DNA of 5,358 bases. Origin: Candidatus Eiseniibacteriota bacterium. Lineage in GTDB: Bacteria; JAFGKV01. This document shows, piece by piece, positions 1-5,358 of the stretch. The notes beneath the pieces are model-generated. The model was not told where the DNA came from. It did no database searches and saw only the letters and a program-made list of their open reading frames with translations. Both the position numbers and the translations under genes were made by a program. Numbering within the stretch: the stretch's first letter is position 1; every line of letters begins with the position of its first letter. The stretch covers positions 1-5,358 of the forward strand of contig JALOPK010000249.1 in assembly GCA_025453925.1 (NCBI GenBank). The letters are read 5' to 3'.

Positions 1-171
1 ACCCACGTGGGGCCGGTGGGAGACCTTCCTCTCTCGGCGTTCTATGGGCCACGGCCGGCCGCTTCGCTCTCGGACTGGTGTCACAAGGGTCGCGTGCGAG
101 CGAGAAAGACGCTCGAGACGGGTATGTTGTCCGTGGAAGGCGGCGGGTACCGAGATCACGGGAGACACTGA
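1..171 (+). CDS. Possible 3' end of an upstream gene (partial, unrecognised)
   Basis: Frame 1 is open from the left edge to a TGA at 169-171, giving 56 residues with no start inside the window. GC by codon position is roughly 68/57/73 percent, a weakly coding-like pattern that favours this frame over the other two. The TGA shares its A with the ATG of the next gene (TGATG), an arrangement typical of translationally coupled pairs such as sigma factor/anti-sigma factor. The tail contains DWCHKGRVRARKT, which loosely resembles the recognition helix and wing of MerR/excisionase-type helix-turn-helix domains. It could also be read as the basic C-terminal helix of a sigma factor, but the spacing does not fit a full sigma region 4. 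The product is not identified, and chance openness in GC-rich DNA remains possible. Confidence 0.35.
   Translation, partial: THVGPVGDLPLSAFYGPRPAASLSDWCHKGRVRARKTLETGMLSVEGGGYRDHGRH
160..165 (+). promoter_or_regulatory. Ribosome binding site for the zf-HC2 gene
   Basis: GGGAGA sits 5 nt before the ATG at 171 and decides the start. It lies inside the coding frame of the putative upstream gene, in keeping with coupled translation. Confidence 0.6.
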
Positions 172-857
172 TGGAACACCCAGCCCTTGCCCAGGTATTG
201 CAGTATGTCGCGGGGGGGATGGCTGAGGAAGATGCCTACCACTTCGAGTCCCATCTGGGAAGGTGCCCCGATTGCGCGGCCCGCGTGCGTGCACAGCGCC
301 TCCTCCGCGAGCATCGAGCCTCCATCTTCTCGGCAAGACGCCGCCTGAGCCCGGCGGAGGCGCACCTCCAGGCCCGCCTTCGAGCGTTCCTGGGAGATGC
401 AGATTTGCCCAGCGATCTGAGGAAACGGCTCCTCCGCTGGTCGCGGAGTCTCTTCGCTTCGACGCAGGCGGCGCTCCGCATTGGGCTCGAATCGGCCACT
501 CGCCGGGCGTGGATCCGCGCCGAGGATCTCCCCCGGTTGCCCCATGGTCGCCTGCGGCTGGCGTTTGAGTCGGTTCCCCAGCCCATGCGAATCAGGGGGA
601 AGGATCAGAGTGCCCCCACGGTGGTGGAGTCTCGGGCGCAGTGGCCGACCAGGGTAGTTGCCGATGCGGCAGAGGGCATGGTGCTGGTGCGCCATCCCAG
701 AGGTCAACCGCCTTATCCGCTGATACTGCTTGTCTCGTCATCGGCGGAATGCGTCCGCTTCGCCGAACTGGCCGACATCCCTGGGGAGCCGTACCTCCTC
801 GCCCGCTTCGAAGATGTCCCCGACGGCGAGTATACGCTGCTGCTGCAGGGACAGTGA
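171..857 (+). CDS. zf-HC2-type zinc-finger protein without a membrane segment
   Basis: This is a 228-aa protein. The ATG at 171 is chosen because GGGAGA (160-165) lies 5 nt upstream and because the zinc-finger domain starts here; an in-frame upstream start at 78 would add 31 basic, unconserved-looking residues. Residues 1-40 match the zf-HC2 (anti-sigma-factor zinc finger) pattern, with His28, Cys32 and Cys35 forming H-x3-C-x2-C. His3 lies where many family members have the fourth ligand, and His24 is nearby. Residues 45-130 are Arg/Ala/Leu-rich and probably helical. From about 160 to the end the chain looks beta-rich and closes with FEDVPDGEYTLLL (213-225), reminiscent of carboxypeptidase-regulatory-like/prealbumin-like beta sandwiches. 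No transmembrane helix is visible, unlike classical membrane anti-sigma factors, so a cytosolic zinc-binding regulator is inferred. Its binding partner is unknown; the gene ending at 171 is the obvious candidate. Confidence 0.8.
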   Translation: MEHPALAQVLQYVAGGMAEEDAYHFESHLGRCPDCAARVRAQRLLREHRASIFSARRRLSPAEAHLQARLRAFLGDADLPSDLRKRLLRWSRSLFASTQAALRIGLESATRRAWIRAEDLPRLPHGRLRLAFESVPQPMRIRGKDQSAPTVVESRAQWPTRVVADAAEGMVLVRHPRGQPPYPLILLVSSSAECVRFAELADIPGEPYLLARFEDVPDGEYTLLLQGQ

Positions 858-1126: not shown

Positions 1127-1132
1127 GAGGAG
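1127..1132 (+). promoter_or_regulatory. Ribosome binding site deciding the GTG start at 1141
   Basis: GAGGAG lies 8 nt before GTG 1141. The alternatives in the same frame are worse: GTG 1108 has no upstream purine-rich site, GTG 1135 is only 2 nt from this site, and ATG 1171 has nothing suitably placed. Confidence 0.55.
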
Positions 1133-1140
1133 CGGTGTCC

Positions 1141-2697
1141 GTGTCCAGGTGTGATATCCCGCCGACACGCATGTTCCGCCATGGGGATCTCCGCTTCGCG
1201 TTCGATGCCGTCGCCGCATTCAGCTATCTCGCTCACCATTGCCATGTACCCGTCATCAAGGGCATCACGGTCACCAATGAAGGCAACAGGCCACTCGATC
1301 CTCGCACGCTGATCGTCGACATTCCTGGCTACGCCCTTCCACTGGCTCTGACCATCGAGCCTCCGCCGCCAGGAGAGACGCTTCGGATCGCCCCTATTGC
1401 CCTGACACTCCTCTACGACCGGCTCCAGGGGCTTGAAGCGCGCCGCTACGCTGCCCTGACCGTTACGGTGGATGAACGCGAGATCTTCCGCGACGAGATC
1501 TTGGTCTTGGGCTTCTATGAATGGTCCTTTGCACCCGAGGCCCGCAAGACCCTGGCCTGCTACGTGCAGCCGGGGCAGGCCGTCGTACAGCAGATCATCG
1601 CGCATGCCGACGGATTGGCGGTGGGGTCAGATGGAGAGCCGGGGCATATGCCACCCGGGGATGCTGGGTGGGATGTCGAGCGTGAAGTGCGTGGGCTCTA
1701 TGACACGTTGCGTCTGTCGTACAACCTTCGCTACGTGCTTGAGGCGCCCAGCTATGAAATCGAAGGGCAGGCGATTCGCCCGCCTCACAGGGTGATCACC
1801 AATCCCAGGGCCCGCGCCGGTGCAGGGACCTGCATCGACCTATCGCTCCTGTTCGCGTCCTGCCTCGAGAGCCTCCGCCTGCAGCCGCTGGTGATCGTGA
1901 CCCGCGACCGGCAGCAGGCCGGCCGCCACGCCGTGGTCGGATGTTGGACGAGGGTAAGCGAACGTCTCGAACCGGTGATCGAATCACGCTCGCGGCTCAA
2001 TGACGCCGTGCGCCATCGGCGACTGATCCCACTCGAGGCAACCGGCGTTACTCTTTCCGCCGGCCGCACGCTCTCATTCGAAGAAGCAGTGGAAGCGGCC
2101 GGCCAACGGCTGATTGACGGAGAGCTCGTGTTCGCCTTGGATGTGGCGGCCGCGCGTGCCACGGTGGCGCCGCTGGAGTTTCCCCTGAGCCCGGGAGCGC
2201 TGTCAATCCTTGGCGCCGGGCACACGATCGCTCGATGCGAGGGCAGCGCCACGATGGAGACCAAACACCTGCTTCGGGCAGTCATTGGCCACGGGGGGCA
2301 CCGCGTCGCCGCATTCTTCGCGGGGGAAGGCCTCCGCGGAGCTGATACCCCCGATGGCAGGGCCATGCCGTGCGGTGACTCCGCCCCGCTCCGCGCCACG
2401 CTTAACTACCGCCGTTGCATCGATGACGCCCGCGCCATCGCCGCCGACTGCGGTGCGGGATTCGTCGAGGAGGAACACCTGGTGTATGCGGTGCTTCTCT
2501 CACCCAGCCGAAGCGTCGCTCGAGAGCTCGCGGGTTTCGGCCTGGATCGGGAGCGACTGCTTCACGCGTACCGAGCGCACTTCCTATGGACCAAGGACCT
2601 GGTGAGCACCGAGCAGGGTGGTGCGCAGGAGGGTCCCTCGCAGTCGCACCCACGGCGCGTCACCCAGGAAGGGGGCCATCGTGGTCGTGCCACCTGA
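1141..2697 (+). CDS. Transglutaminase-like (DUF4011-type) protein with C-terminal double Clp_N repeat
   Basis: This is a 518-aa protein starting at GTG 1141. Residues 12-120 form a beta-rich region with N-terminal features I recall from DUF4011 helicase-like proteins. It continues with FYEW (125-128), a VQPG stretch (142-145) and SYEIEGQ (204-210). The transglutaminase/papain-like core follows: GTCIDLS with Cys231, HAVVGCW with His263, and Glu299 in the strand LIPLEAT as a possible third member of the triad. In the large DUF4011 proteins this region precedes a helicase. Here, from residue 349, it is followed by two Clp_N-like repeats (about 349-395 and 416-478), each with the helix signature around LSPGALSIL and a KHLL or EHL motif. 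No Walker motif, helicase or Clp ATPase is present, and the last 35 residues are polar and low in structure. Clp_N domains bind substrates or adaptors, so a substrate-binding/processing role is inferred; enzymatic activity is not shown. The 3' end overlaps the next gene by 17 nt. Confidence 0.85.
   Translation: MSRCDIPPTRMFRHGDLRFAFDAVAAFSYLAHHCHVPVIKGITVTNEGNRPLDPRTLIVDIPGYALPLALTIEPPPPGETLRIAPIALTLLYDRLQGLEARRYAALTVTVDEREIFRDEILVLGFYEWSFAPEARKTLACYVQPGQAVVQQIIAHADGLAVGSDGEPGHMPPGDAGWDVEREVRGLYDTLRLSYNLRYVLEAPSYEIEGQAIRPPHRVITNPRARAGAGTCIDLSLLFASCLESLRLQPLVIVTRDRQQAGRHAVVGCWTRVSERLEPVIESRSRLNDAVRHRRLIPLEATGVTLSAGRTLSFEEAVEAAGQRLIDGELVFALDVAAARATVAPLEFPLSPGALSILGAGHTIARCEGSATMETKHLLRAVIGHGGHRVAAFFAGEGLRGADTPDGRAMPCGDSAPLRATLNYRRCIDDARAIAADCGAGFVEEEHLVYAVLLSPSRSVARELAGFGLDRERLLHAYRAHFLWTKDLVSTEQGGAQEGPSQSHPRRVTQEGGHRGRAT
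2666..2672 (+). promoter_or_regulatory. Ribosome binding site for the small membrane protein gene
   Basis: AGGAAGG lies 8 nt before GTG 2681, inside the end of the preceding gene. It favours GTG 2681 over GTG 2687 (14 nt away) and over an upstream in-frame start at 2618, which would add a very basic leader. Confidence 0.6.
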
Positions 2698-3064
2698 TAC
2701 CGACAGGATTCCGCGAGTGCCCCTGGTTGGGTTCCTGGTGATCGTCGTTCTCTACCTGGCCGCATCGCTCTATATGGCGGTGTTCGTGTTTCCCCGCGAG
2801 CCCGTCCTTGACTATGGCATCGGCACGACAACGCGCTCGATCCTCTGGGCAGGCCCCATTGGCGGCCTGAGAGACCTCACGGGGCTAGGCGCCTTTTTCG
2901 GTGTTCTCGGGTACATCCTGGGTTCCGGGATCCTCCTGTGGATGATCAAGGGAGCGCTTTTCGCCGAACGCGGGTGGGCCAAGCTCGGGTTCGCTGTCGG
3001 CGCGCTCGCATTCTGGTTCCTCTCGGGTGCCGCCCTCTTCGGCCCGGGATACATGGTGTTCTGA
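2681..3064 (+). CDS. Small three-helix membrane protein, unknown function
   Basis: This 127-aa protein starts at GTG 2681 and overlaps the end of the Clp_N fusion gene by 17 nt. Three hydrophobic segments are clear: about 14-37 (LVGFLVIVVLYLAASLYM), 66-89 (Gly-rich, with LGAFFGVLGYILGSG) and 101-121 (LGFAVGALAFWFLSGAALFG). Between the first two lies a loop of about 28 residues containing Asp44, Arg52 and Arg64-Asp65; between the last two is a short loop with Lys90, Glu96, Arg97 and Lys101. The glycine and small-residue pattern in helices 2 and 3 suggests tight helix packing. There is no signal-peptidase site, catalytic motif or recognised family. Being between the Clp_N fusion and the kinase-STAND gene, it is probably expressed with them. 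It could be a membrane anchor, a sensor or a membrane-acting effector, and the sequence does not distinguish these. Confidence 0.75.
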   Translation: MVVPPDTDRIPRVPLVGFLVIVVLYLAASLYMAVFVFPREPVLDYGIGTTTRSILWAGPIGGLRDLTGLGAFFGVLGYILGSGILLWMIKGALFAERGWAKLGFAVGALAFWFLSGAALFGPGYMVF

Positions 3065-3097: not shown

Positions 3098-5358
3098 GTG
3101 GCGCAAGGACGAACGCTGCTGAACGGTCGATTTGCCCTCGGTAATGCCATAGGGCGTGGCGCGTCCGGGAGTGTATTCCGGGGCCTCGATACTGTCACGG
3201 GTGAGTCAGTGGCCATCAAACTGCTTACTGCGCCCGGCGCCGGGATGGACCGTCTCAAGTCCGAAGCGAAACTGCTTCAGAAGCTTTGCCATCCGTGCAT
3301 CGTCACAGTGCGTGGCGCGGGGACTGAGAAGGAAACACCGTTCCTGGTGACAGACCTCGTTGAGGGCGGTTCACTGCGAGACCTCCTGATACGGGAACAC
3401 CGCCTTCCGATCACACGGGCCCTGGAGATCGCCATTGACCTGGCGGATGCGTTGCACCATGCCCACGAGCATGGCATCATCCACCGGGATGTGAAACCTG
3501 CCAACGTGCTCATCGCGTCGGATGGAACGCCCCGGCTCACCGACTTCGGAGTGGCTGCTGTCCATGATCCCGCGGCCGTGGGCCTCACCCGGGAGTTGAT
3601 CGGGACACTTGCCTACCTGAGCCCCGAGGGGTTTCGCGGCGAACCTCGAGGCCCCGAGTCTGACCTGTGGTCGCTGGGGCTGGTGCTCTTCGAAATGTTG
3701 GCGGGATCGCTTCCCTTCGGGGACCCGGCCACCGAGGCGGAGTTGCCCGGGCTGGCGGATCGCCCGGCACCCCTGGTCAGCGAGTTCAGACCAGAAGCAC
3801 CCGACGGCCTCGTGACGCTACTCTCTGCCATGCTCGAACGAGATAGATCCACGCGAGCCGGCGATGCGGGTGAGGTCGCCCGACAGATCGAGGGTATCCT
3901 GAAGGATCTGTGCGGGACCGGTCAGACCGGATCGAGACGCGCCACCGCAACGGGCGCACCCGGCGGATCGCACACTCCGTTTGTGGGGCGGGAACATGAG
4001 CACGAGGTGGTGCTGTCTCTCCTGAAAGGCCGGACTCACCGCCTCATTTGTCTGGTGGGTCCGGGTGGTATCGGCAAGACCAGGCTGGCCCGCGAAACCG
4101 TGGCGCTGGCCGCGGAGGCGTTCTCCGACGGGGTGTTTCTCGTCCCGTTGGCATCAATCCCATCGGCAGCCTTGATGCCGCCTGCCATTGCCGCCGCGGT
4201 CGGCCTGACATTCCGAGGTGCCGCGGAACCCAAGGTTCAGCTCCTGGAGTTTCTCAGCACGCGGAGGATGTTGCTCGTCATGGACAATGTCGAGCATCTC
4301 CTGGACGGGGTCGGCCTGTTCGATGACATACTCGATGCCGCGCCTGCCGCAACTCTCTTGGTCACTAGTCGTGAGCGACTGGGGCACCCCTCGGAGTACG
4401 CGGTAGAGCTCCGCGGCCTGGGCTTCCCCTCACTTGCTGATGACCCCGACCCGGACCGCTACCCGGCGCTCATGGTGTTTGAGCACGCCGCGAGAAGAGC
4501 ATCGGAGGGAGTCACCCCACAACCCAGGGACTGGGTTTCCATCGCCGCGATCTGCCGGCTGGTGGATGGCAACCCTCTGGGGATCGAGCTGGCGGCCGCG
4601 TCCGTTGACCAATGTCCCTGCCAAGAAATCGTCACGCGCGTCACCGAAGACATCGACCTTCTCGCTGCTCAGACACCCGAACTTCCCCCCCGCCATCGAA
4701 GCATGCGAGCAGTGTTCGACCATTCGTGGCGGCTCTTGCCGGATTCGGAACAGCACATGTTCCGGCGCATGGCGGTCTTCCATGGTGGATTCACGCTGGA
4801 AGCAGCGCGTGCGGTGGTTGGCGCATCCCGCTCCATGCTCTCCAGCCTGGTTCGCAAGTCGCTGCTGACCCGCGACGGGTCAGACCGATACGTTCTGCAT
4901 GAGTTGCTGCGTCACTATGCTCGTGAAGAACTGGGGCGTTGGCCGCATGAGTCGGGGGAAGTGGAGGATCTCCACGCAGAATACTACGGTCGATACGTCA
5001 AGGATCGGGAATCCGCGTTGGGCGCCGCGAGAGACAAGTCGGCTTTCCTGCAGATTGAGGCGGAGTTGCCCAACCTGCGGCGGGGCTGGGAACGTGCAGT
5101 CGCAGCACGGAAAAGCGACGTCGTCCTGATGTATCTCCGAGGCATGCACCGGTTCTTCGAGCACCAGTCGCGGTTTAAGGAAGGAGAGGCGGCATTCGGG
5201 GACGCCGTGGCGAGGCTTCGGAAGGCGCCAGACGCAGATGGACCATGCCTCAGGGCCCTGGCCGTGGCGCTGACATGCTGGAGTGCCATGATCTACCGAC
5301 TTGCTCGCTATCAGGAGGCGCGCGACCTGGCACACGAGGCGCGAGCGATGGCCGAGAA
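3098..5358 (+). CDS. Ser/Thr protein kinase-STAND ATPase-TPR fusion protein (3' end outside window)
   Basis: At least 753 aa in one uninterrupted frame from GTG 3098 to the right edge. Residues 10-270 are a complete Hanks-type kinase: glycine loop GRGASGSVF (19-27), VAIK with Lys41, alpha-C Glu56, HRD (129-131), Lys133 and Asn136, DFG (149-151), activation segment GTLAYLSPE (169-177), DLWSLG (189-194). All catalytic residues are present, so it should be active. A linker (271-292) leads to a STAND/NB-ARC-like NTPase: FVGRE (295-299), Walker A GPGGIGKT (321-328), Walker B LLVMD (392-396) followed by NVEH, TSRERL (423-428), and the GNPLGIELAAA motif (491-501). A winged-helix region follows (about 530-605), ending in LHELLRHYA. 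Helical TPR-like repeats begin near 620 and continue past the edge. STAND proteins are ATP-dependent switches whose repeats sense a ligand; here the output is likely phosphorylation. The architecture is similar to AfsR/PknK-type regulators. No membrane helix is seen. The C-terminus is unknown. Confidence 0.93.
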   Translation, partial: MAQGRTLLNGRFALGNAIGRGASGSVFRGLDTVTGESVAIKLLTAPGAGMDRLKSEAKLLQKLCHPCIVTVRGAGTEKETPFLVTDLVEGGSLRDLLIREHRLPITRALEIAIDLADALHHAHEHGIIHRDVKPANVLIASDGTPRLTDFGVAAVHDPAAVGLTRELIGTLAYLSPEGFRGEPRGPESDLWSLGLVLFEMLAGSLPFGDPATEAELPGLADRPAPLVSEFRPEAPDGLVTLLSAMLERDRSTRAGDAGEVARQIEGILKDLCGTGQTGSRRATATGAPGGSHTPFVGREHEHEVVLSLLKGRTHRLICLVGPGGIGKTRLARETVALAAEAFSDGVFLVPLASIPSAALMPPAIAAAVGLTFRGAAEPKVQLLEFLSTRRMLLVMDNVEHLLDGVGLFDDILDAAPAATLLVTSRERLGHPSEYAVELRGLGFPSLADDPDPDRYPALMVFEHAARRASEGVTPQPRDWVSIAAICRLVDGNPLGIELAAASVDQCPCQEIVTRVTEDIDLLAAQTPELPPRHRSMRAVFDHSWRLLPDSEQHMFRRMAVFHGGFTLEAARAVVGASRSMLSSLVRKSLLTRDGSDRYVLHELLRHYAREELGRWPHESGEVEDLHAEYYGRYVKDRESALGAARDKSAFLQIEAELPNLRRGWERAVAARKSDVVLMYLRGMHRFFEHQSRFKEGEAAFGDAVARLRKAPDADGPCLRALAVALTCWSAMIYRLARYQEARDLAHEARAMAE

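Follow-up and report, generated by a model that had tools for sequence, protein, structure and literature searches.

When a transglutaminase-like domain and the N-domain of a Clp ATPase are found in one protein that carries no motor, the question arises as to what these two parts do together. This question is raised by the gene at positions 1141..2697 (+ strand) of the window, the term used here for the whole stretch of 5,358 nucleotides that was analysed, which is one entire contig of the metagenome-assembled genome G000 (3.9 Mb, 502 contigs, 82% complete). The fusion encoded by this gene is real: a beta-sandwich is followed by a core of the transglutaminase fold (TGL), and this in turn by a tandem Clp_N domain. 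The answer that we prefer, to which we give about an even chance of being correct, is that the protein would be a kinase-linked cysteine peptidase of the TGL superfamily, whose Clp-type N-domain recruits its protein substrate, or else an adaptor of Clp.

The open frame of 518 aa begins with the GTG at 1141. This codon is taken as the start because the Shine-Dalgarno sequence GAGGAG, read ahead of it at 1127..1132 (+), is kept in the equivalent gene of a sister genome of the same genus (L012), where AAGGAG precedes the homologous GTG. The alternative start at GTG 1108 was dropped, as it is GTG 1141 that has the conserved Shine-Dalgarno sequence. An earlier note, made from the sequence alone, had described a transglutaminase/papain-like region fused straight to a double Clp_N, with no ATPase or helicase. 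The fusion is borne out by NCBIfam, Pfam, profile and fold matches, and neither Pfam nor NCBIfam finds a motor domain, be it AAA+, helicase or another, in the polypeptide; with its AAA+ module absent, the protein does not belong to the Clp/Hsp100 ATPases. Clp_N is the sole family matched by Pfam, a phmmer search with the whole protein against PDB sequences gave no matches, and PADLOC likewise has no match for this protein.

The assignment of the Clp_N part is secure. The tandem domain comprises aa 347-485 (2179..2595, + strand), and the significant match foreseen at 349-478 was found by Pfam, by profile and by fold. In Pfam, Clp_N (PF02861) scores 26.3 bits against a cut-off of 20.7 bits at aa 430-475, so that Pfam alone passes only the second repeat, the first being degenerate in sequence. 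However, when a profile of three relatives was compared with the ClpC N-domains in the PDB, single stretches extended across both repeats with a best E of 5e-7 (e.g. 8-129 vs 10-139 for 2y1q), and the Clp_N profile also aligns with the N-domains of the genome's own ClpC/ClpB (P 6e-7). Further, residues 347-485 of the structural model match ClpC N-domains in Foldseek (E 1.4e-6) and in VIA (Z 18.2, 2.2 A, 127 aa), by which both repeats are accounted for. Thus, the tandem repeat and fold are those of the N-terminal domains of ClpC/ClpB (PF02861), whereas the window protein has its Clp_N at the C-terminus, lacks the AAA+ module and has replaced the residue aligned with ClpC E32. In ClpC, E32 and E106 are residues of the phosphoarginine sites, E32 belonging to site 2 (PMC12583610). 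In the alignment to the genome's ClpC (window 2179-2340 vs L016 1178-1622), the position of E32 is occupied by Lys in the first repeat of the window protein and by Arg, Gly or Ala in its three closest relatives, while the position of E106 is kept in 3 of the 4 closest fusion proteins. Because the E32 equivalent is replaced in all four, ClpC-like ligand binding is not fully retained.

These results bear upon a different reading of the protein, viz. that it is an adaptor or decoy, in which Clp_N captures substrates or adaptors from ClpC/ClpB, or delivers them to these ATPases, and the TGL domain modifies or trims the captive. A role of this kind is presumed for proteins with Clp_N but no ATPase, mycobacterial ClpC2 and plant ClpT being examples. 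The structures of ClpC2 and ClpT are among the fold matches of the Clp_N model, the ClpC N-domains being the most similar, and the same genome encodes both ClpC and ClpB with normal N-domains, which agrees with such a role. However, the replacement of the E32 equivalent by K, R, G or A speaks against it, even with E106 kept in three of the proteins, and the invariance of the TGL residues described below would be unnecessary in a pure decoy. Further, although mycobacterial ClpC2 and plant ClpT1/ClpT2 resemble the window protein in having the Clp_N fold without an AAA+ motor, to our knowledge no catalytic domain is fused to them. On balance, we regard this reading as unlikely.

The region preceding Clp_N had been labelled DUF4011 in the earlier note, and this label has to be corrected. 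The window protein gives no Pfam match to DUF4011 (PF13195), and in L014, a full-length relative of ProA, DUF4011 lies at aa 398-569, i.e. after the region shared with the window protein; due to these two observations the label is wrong. It was off by a single domain, and the other term used in the note, transglutaminase-like, was apt. By sequence comparison, the region corresponds instead to the TGL domain that is N-terminal to DUF4011 in giant helicases of the ProA/MTES_1575 type. Its match to NF058533 (ProA) in NCBIfam covers profile positions 3-312 of 1903 (E 4.8e-41, 140.3 bits), and as the cut-off of this family is 1500 bits for full-length proteins, the window protein is not a full-length ProA. 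The order of domains in the ProA (NF058533)/MTES_1575-type proteins is TGL-DUF4011-SF1 helicase-Vsr REase-DUF3320, and what they have in common with the window protein is the N-terminal beta-sandwich and the TGL core, in which Cys, His and acid recur. In contrast, DUF4011, the helicase, the nuclease and DUF3320 are all missing from the window protein, in which the tandem Clp_N is present instead. The TGL domain of the MTES_1575-type proteins has been termed a transglutaminase-like peptidase, and a protein-cleaving role has been proposed for it (Anantharaman et al. 2013, PMC3710099). No paper describing ProA was found in the open-licence literature searched.

A domain-architecture search, as suggested at the outset, recovers the TGL-Clp_N fusion in five proteins from three phyla. 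Two of these, the window protein and its equivalent in L012, have no FHA domain, and the other three, viz. a second protein of the sister genome G001 (L011/L013; FHA seen in L011), L066 from a second phylum (G389; match E 1.9e-126 over the whole length) and L081 from a third (G687; match E 2.8e-41), have in addition an FHA domain (45-57 bits) at the N-terminus, FHA being a domain that binds phosphothreonine. The window protein is thus outside the FHA-containing subset, and no degenerate FHA was seen by eye in the frame translations of the gap at 858-1140. The Clp_N part of L081 was recognised through alignment alone, Pfam giving no match. As five proteins were obtained from about 1200 genome searches, some of them overlapping, the architecture is rare, and it should be noted that single contigs in these genomes may be contaminants. 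Among viral contigs, only giant ProA-like relatives were found, the fusion being absent, and of the 44 relatives on plasmids none covered 80% of the query, the listed ones being nearly all annotated as DUF3320 proteins.

The genes surrounding the fusion provide further information regarding its possible function. Its start overlapping the stop of the TGL-Clp_N gene, a gene for a small predicted membrane protein follows at 2681..3064 (+), with a homologue at the equivalent position in L012 and no Pfam family above cut-off, and the two genes are probably translationally coupled. This small product, whose gene is located between those for TGL-Clp_N and the kinase, contains the conserved segments IPRVPL.GF and DYGIGTTT. 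The next gene, at 3098..5356 (+) and cut by the contig end, encodes a Ser/Thr kinase joined to a STAND (NB-ARC/AP-ATPase-like) NTPase and TPRs (in Pfam, Pkinase E 4e-48 and AAA_22 over cut-off, NB-ARC and TPR weaker), and its full-length homologue in L012 (1931-5167) has 1078 aa. Upstream of the fusion gene is a sigma/anti-sigma pair. Of the first member, an ECF-type sigma factor gene, the contig start leaves just the 3' end (1..168, +), the translation of which matches the C-terminus of the syntenic sigma factor of L012; the latter in turn resembles ECF sigma models, its TIGR02937 match (E 8e-7) falling short of the curated cut-off. The second (171..857, +) encodes a probable zinc-binding anti-sigma factor with an HX3CX2C motif (HLGRCPDC) and a syntenic homologue in L012; its zf-HC2 score of 19.1 bits does not reach the cut-off of 22.2, and its match to RsrA-like proteins has E 3e-4. 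Hence, the window and L012 share an order of five genes, viz. ECF sigma, zinc anti-sigma, TGL-Clp_N, small membrane protein and kinase-STAND-TPR. In L013, a sigma and an anti-sigma gene stand immediately before the FHA-TGL-Clp_N gene, and a kinase with beta-propeller repeats is encoded 3.1 kb downstream. The kinase-TPR gene of L066 is about 1.5-2 kb downstream, with no sigma/anti-sigma genes nearby, and in L081, where 317 bases only are seen upstream, a kinase gene begins less than 100 bases away.

A same-strand Ser/Thr kinase gene is therefore found within about 3 kb of all five TGL-Clp_N proteins. The number of kinases is 6 in G000, 10 in G001, 5 in G389 and at least 145 in G687, and the rough chance of meeting one in a 10-kb neighbourhood is ~2% for the window/L012 type, ~2% for L013, ~1% for L066 and at least 17% for L081. 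These estimates being low, the joint co-occurrence with kinases is unlikely to be accidental, the G687 case adding little to this conclusion. The connection to a kinase proposed in the earlier note is in fact stronger than was stated there, when the FHA domain in 3/5 proteins is also considered, and the gene order suggests an undescribed kinase-controlled protein-processing switch. In a separate locus, L067 (6167-8959, 930 aa), TGL is fused straight to an NB-ARC/STAND NTPase and TPRs. By this direct joining the TGL and STAND modules are linked, and L067 is possibly a one-protein version of the neighbouring genes in the window.

The same context, however, also allows the protein to be viewed as a stripped-down ProA relative serving in an anti-phage module, where the sensing of infection by the STAND/kinase protein triggers the TGL effector. 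The homology of the TGL region to the N-terminus of NF058533, named 'anti-phage protein ProA', the STAND-kinase neighbour and the TGL-NB-ARC fusion in L067 fit such a role, as do the matches of the kinase to the mad6 and PD-T4-6 models. However, the latter matches are of a kind that the kinase fold gives in general, the syntenic loci examined contain no recognised defence genes, and an ECF sigma/anti-sigma neighbourhood is suggestive of regulation, so that a defence function seems to us doubtful.

If the preferred reading as a peptidase is correct, the TGL core should have the fold and the residues of an active enzyme. In Pfam, the window protein has no match to Transglut_core (PF01841) at E up to 1. 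The nearest approach, 22.5 bits against the 23-bit cut-off, is seen only among the secreted and TPR-bearing proteins that a profile of the TGL region additionally recovers. Since the TGL-part profile, like the phmmer search above, found no matches among PDB sequences, a comparison of folds was needed, and as the fold list of the full-length model was crowded by ClpC matches, the TGL domain was folded alone. The resulting model (337 aa, pLDDT 81, pTM 0.79) is built from a shallow alignment of 6 sequences. In it, the N-terminal beta-sandwich (about aa 10-123; 1168..1509, +; domain model pLDDT 81) matches immunoglobulin-like sandwiches in VIA with Z 7.4-7.7, middling values that may reflect just a common arrangement. 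The predicted catalytic core (about aa 131-341; 1531..2163, +), which is also within the N-terminal match to NF058533, has as its top VIA matches S. pyogenes TglA (Z 9.0), transglutaminase 2 (Z 8.9) and PeiP (Z 8.8), followed lower down by LapG (Z 8.3) and PNGase (Z 8.2), with factor XIII also sharing the fold. Nearly all VIA rows at Z >= 8 are enzymes of this kind, and the modelled core is thus of the transglutaminase fold, with the qualification that Z 8-9 is moderate and barely over the level of common matches.

The residues singled out earlier are confirmed at their places. In 20 aligned relatives, the invariant positions number 5 of 331 (Gln210, Arg213, Cys231, His263 and Arg339), and these include the putative nucleophile, Cys231 (1831..1833, +), and the putative catalytic base, His263 (1927..1929, +). 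The putative third member of the triad, Glu299 (2035..2037, +), is Glu or Asp in 20/20, and the order Cys, His, acid of the TGL superfamily is thereby present throughout. In an HMM alignment with L089, a Transglut_core protein (50 bits) of the same genome, Cys falls on Cys and His on His (P 7e-5); for a second Transglut_core protein, L091, the comparison is not significant, yet here too Cys and His fall into register. A pairing of Cys231 with His263 is in this manner supported indirectly, by conservation, by the HMM alignment and by the fold. The fold is shared with transglutaminase 2 and factor XIII, and the protein could accordingly be imagined as a strict transglutaminase that cross-links, deamidates or transfers amides on a docked partner. 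However, the data give transfer no preference over hydrolysis, and the VIA matches include LapG as well as PeiP and PeiW, both endoisopeptidases of pseudomurein; prokaryotic proteins of the transglutaminase fold are mostly peptidases or amidases, and we consider a strict transglutaminase quite improbable. The earlier note had also entertained an inactive scaffold. Such a scaffold, which would bind phosphoproteins and Clp partners and with which the lack of a Transglut_core match would agree, is the least probable reading, because with so few invariant positions Cys231 and His263 are among them and 299 is always acidic, making a catalytically dead protein unlikely.

In the reading that we prefer, i.e. 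a kinase-linked TGL peptidase, the Cys231-His263-Glu299 core would perform the chemistry, most likely peptide-bond hydrolysis, and the tandem Clp_N would dock particular partners rather than feed an AAA+ ring. Proteolysis is in this sense predicted, and we infer hydrolysis rather than transfer. Control would be exerted by the adjoining Ser/Thr kinase, to which a STAND switch and TPRs are fused in the window. In the FHA-bearing relatives, the coupling would be physical, the N-terminal FHA binding phosphothreonine on the kinase or on a kinase substrate, and the window protein, in which FHA is absent, may be phosphorylated directly or be contacted by the kinase. One plausible output would be that the adjacent zinc anti-sigma factor is cleaved or sequestered and the ECF sigma factor released; this idea is confined to one genus, because L066 has no sigma/anti-sigma genes in its vicinity and only 317 bases are seen upstream in L081. 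Proteolysis, phospho-control, the target and any part in phage defence are likewise all predictions for this protein. The absence of a Pfam transglutaminase match, the shallow alignment beneath the fold model and the lack of FHA in the window protein count against the preferred reading. More tentatively still, the proteins may constitute a multi-phylum system in which a kinase, through FHA-phosphothreonine docking or STAND, gates a TGL peptidase that selects its substrates with Clp_N, independently of ATP, the ECF anti-sigma factor being one target.

The component parts of this architecture are known, and their combination appears to be undescribed in the open literature. In surveys of conflict systems, vWA proteins are described as bearing ClpN repeats, and VMAPs as containing TGL-like peptidases (PMC7159879). 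Modular use of ClpN or TGL is common to the window protein and to these NTP-dependent conflict systems, viz. the FtsH-type vWA-MoxR ternary systems and those with VMAP proteins (PMC7159879). However, no vWA, MoxR or FtsH gene was recognised in the window and the loci read, and here TGL and Clp_N are in one polypeptide beside a kinase. The open-licence literature searched yielded no earlier account of a TGL-Clp_N fusion, with or without FHA. If the preferred reading is true, the substrate-recognition head of Clp has been uncoupled from its motor and joined to a kinase-controlled cysteine peptidase, representing regulated bacterial proteolysis without ATP-driven unfolding. Further, the window protein offers a compact means of approaching the TGL domain that the giant DUF4011 helicases contain, because this domain is here separate from helicase and nuclease and has candidate partners.

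Related TGL cores are also seen in other settings. TPR proteins of ~780 aa are encoded by the window's genome and two relatives (L041, L042, L032); they have a related TGL core containing the motifs GDCED, HAF/HVF and ETT, and an N-terminal region without family assignment. In L015 (1107-14046), a stand-alone ProA-N/TGL protein (9310-10695) is surrounded by a tandem array of related small proteins, whose N-termini resemble 'ITPDG-I--I-DDGTI-RIA' and several of which then carry zinc-ribbon-like CPNCG motifs.
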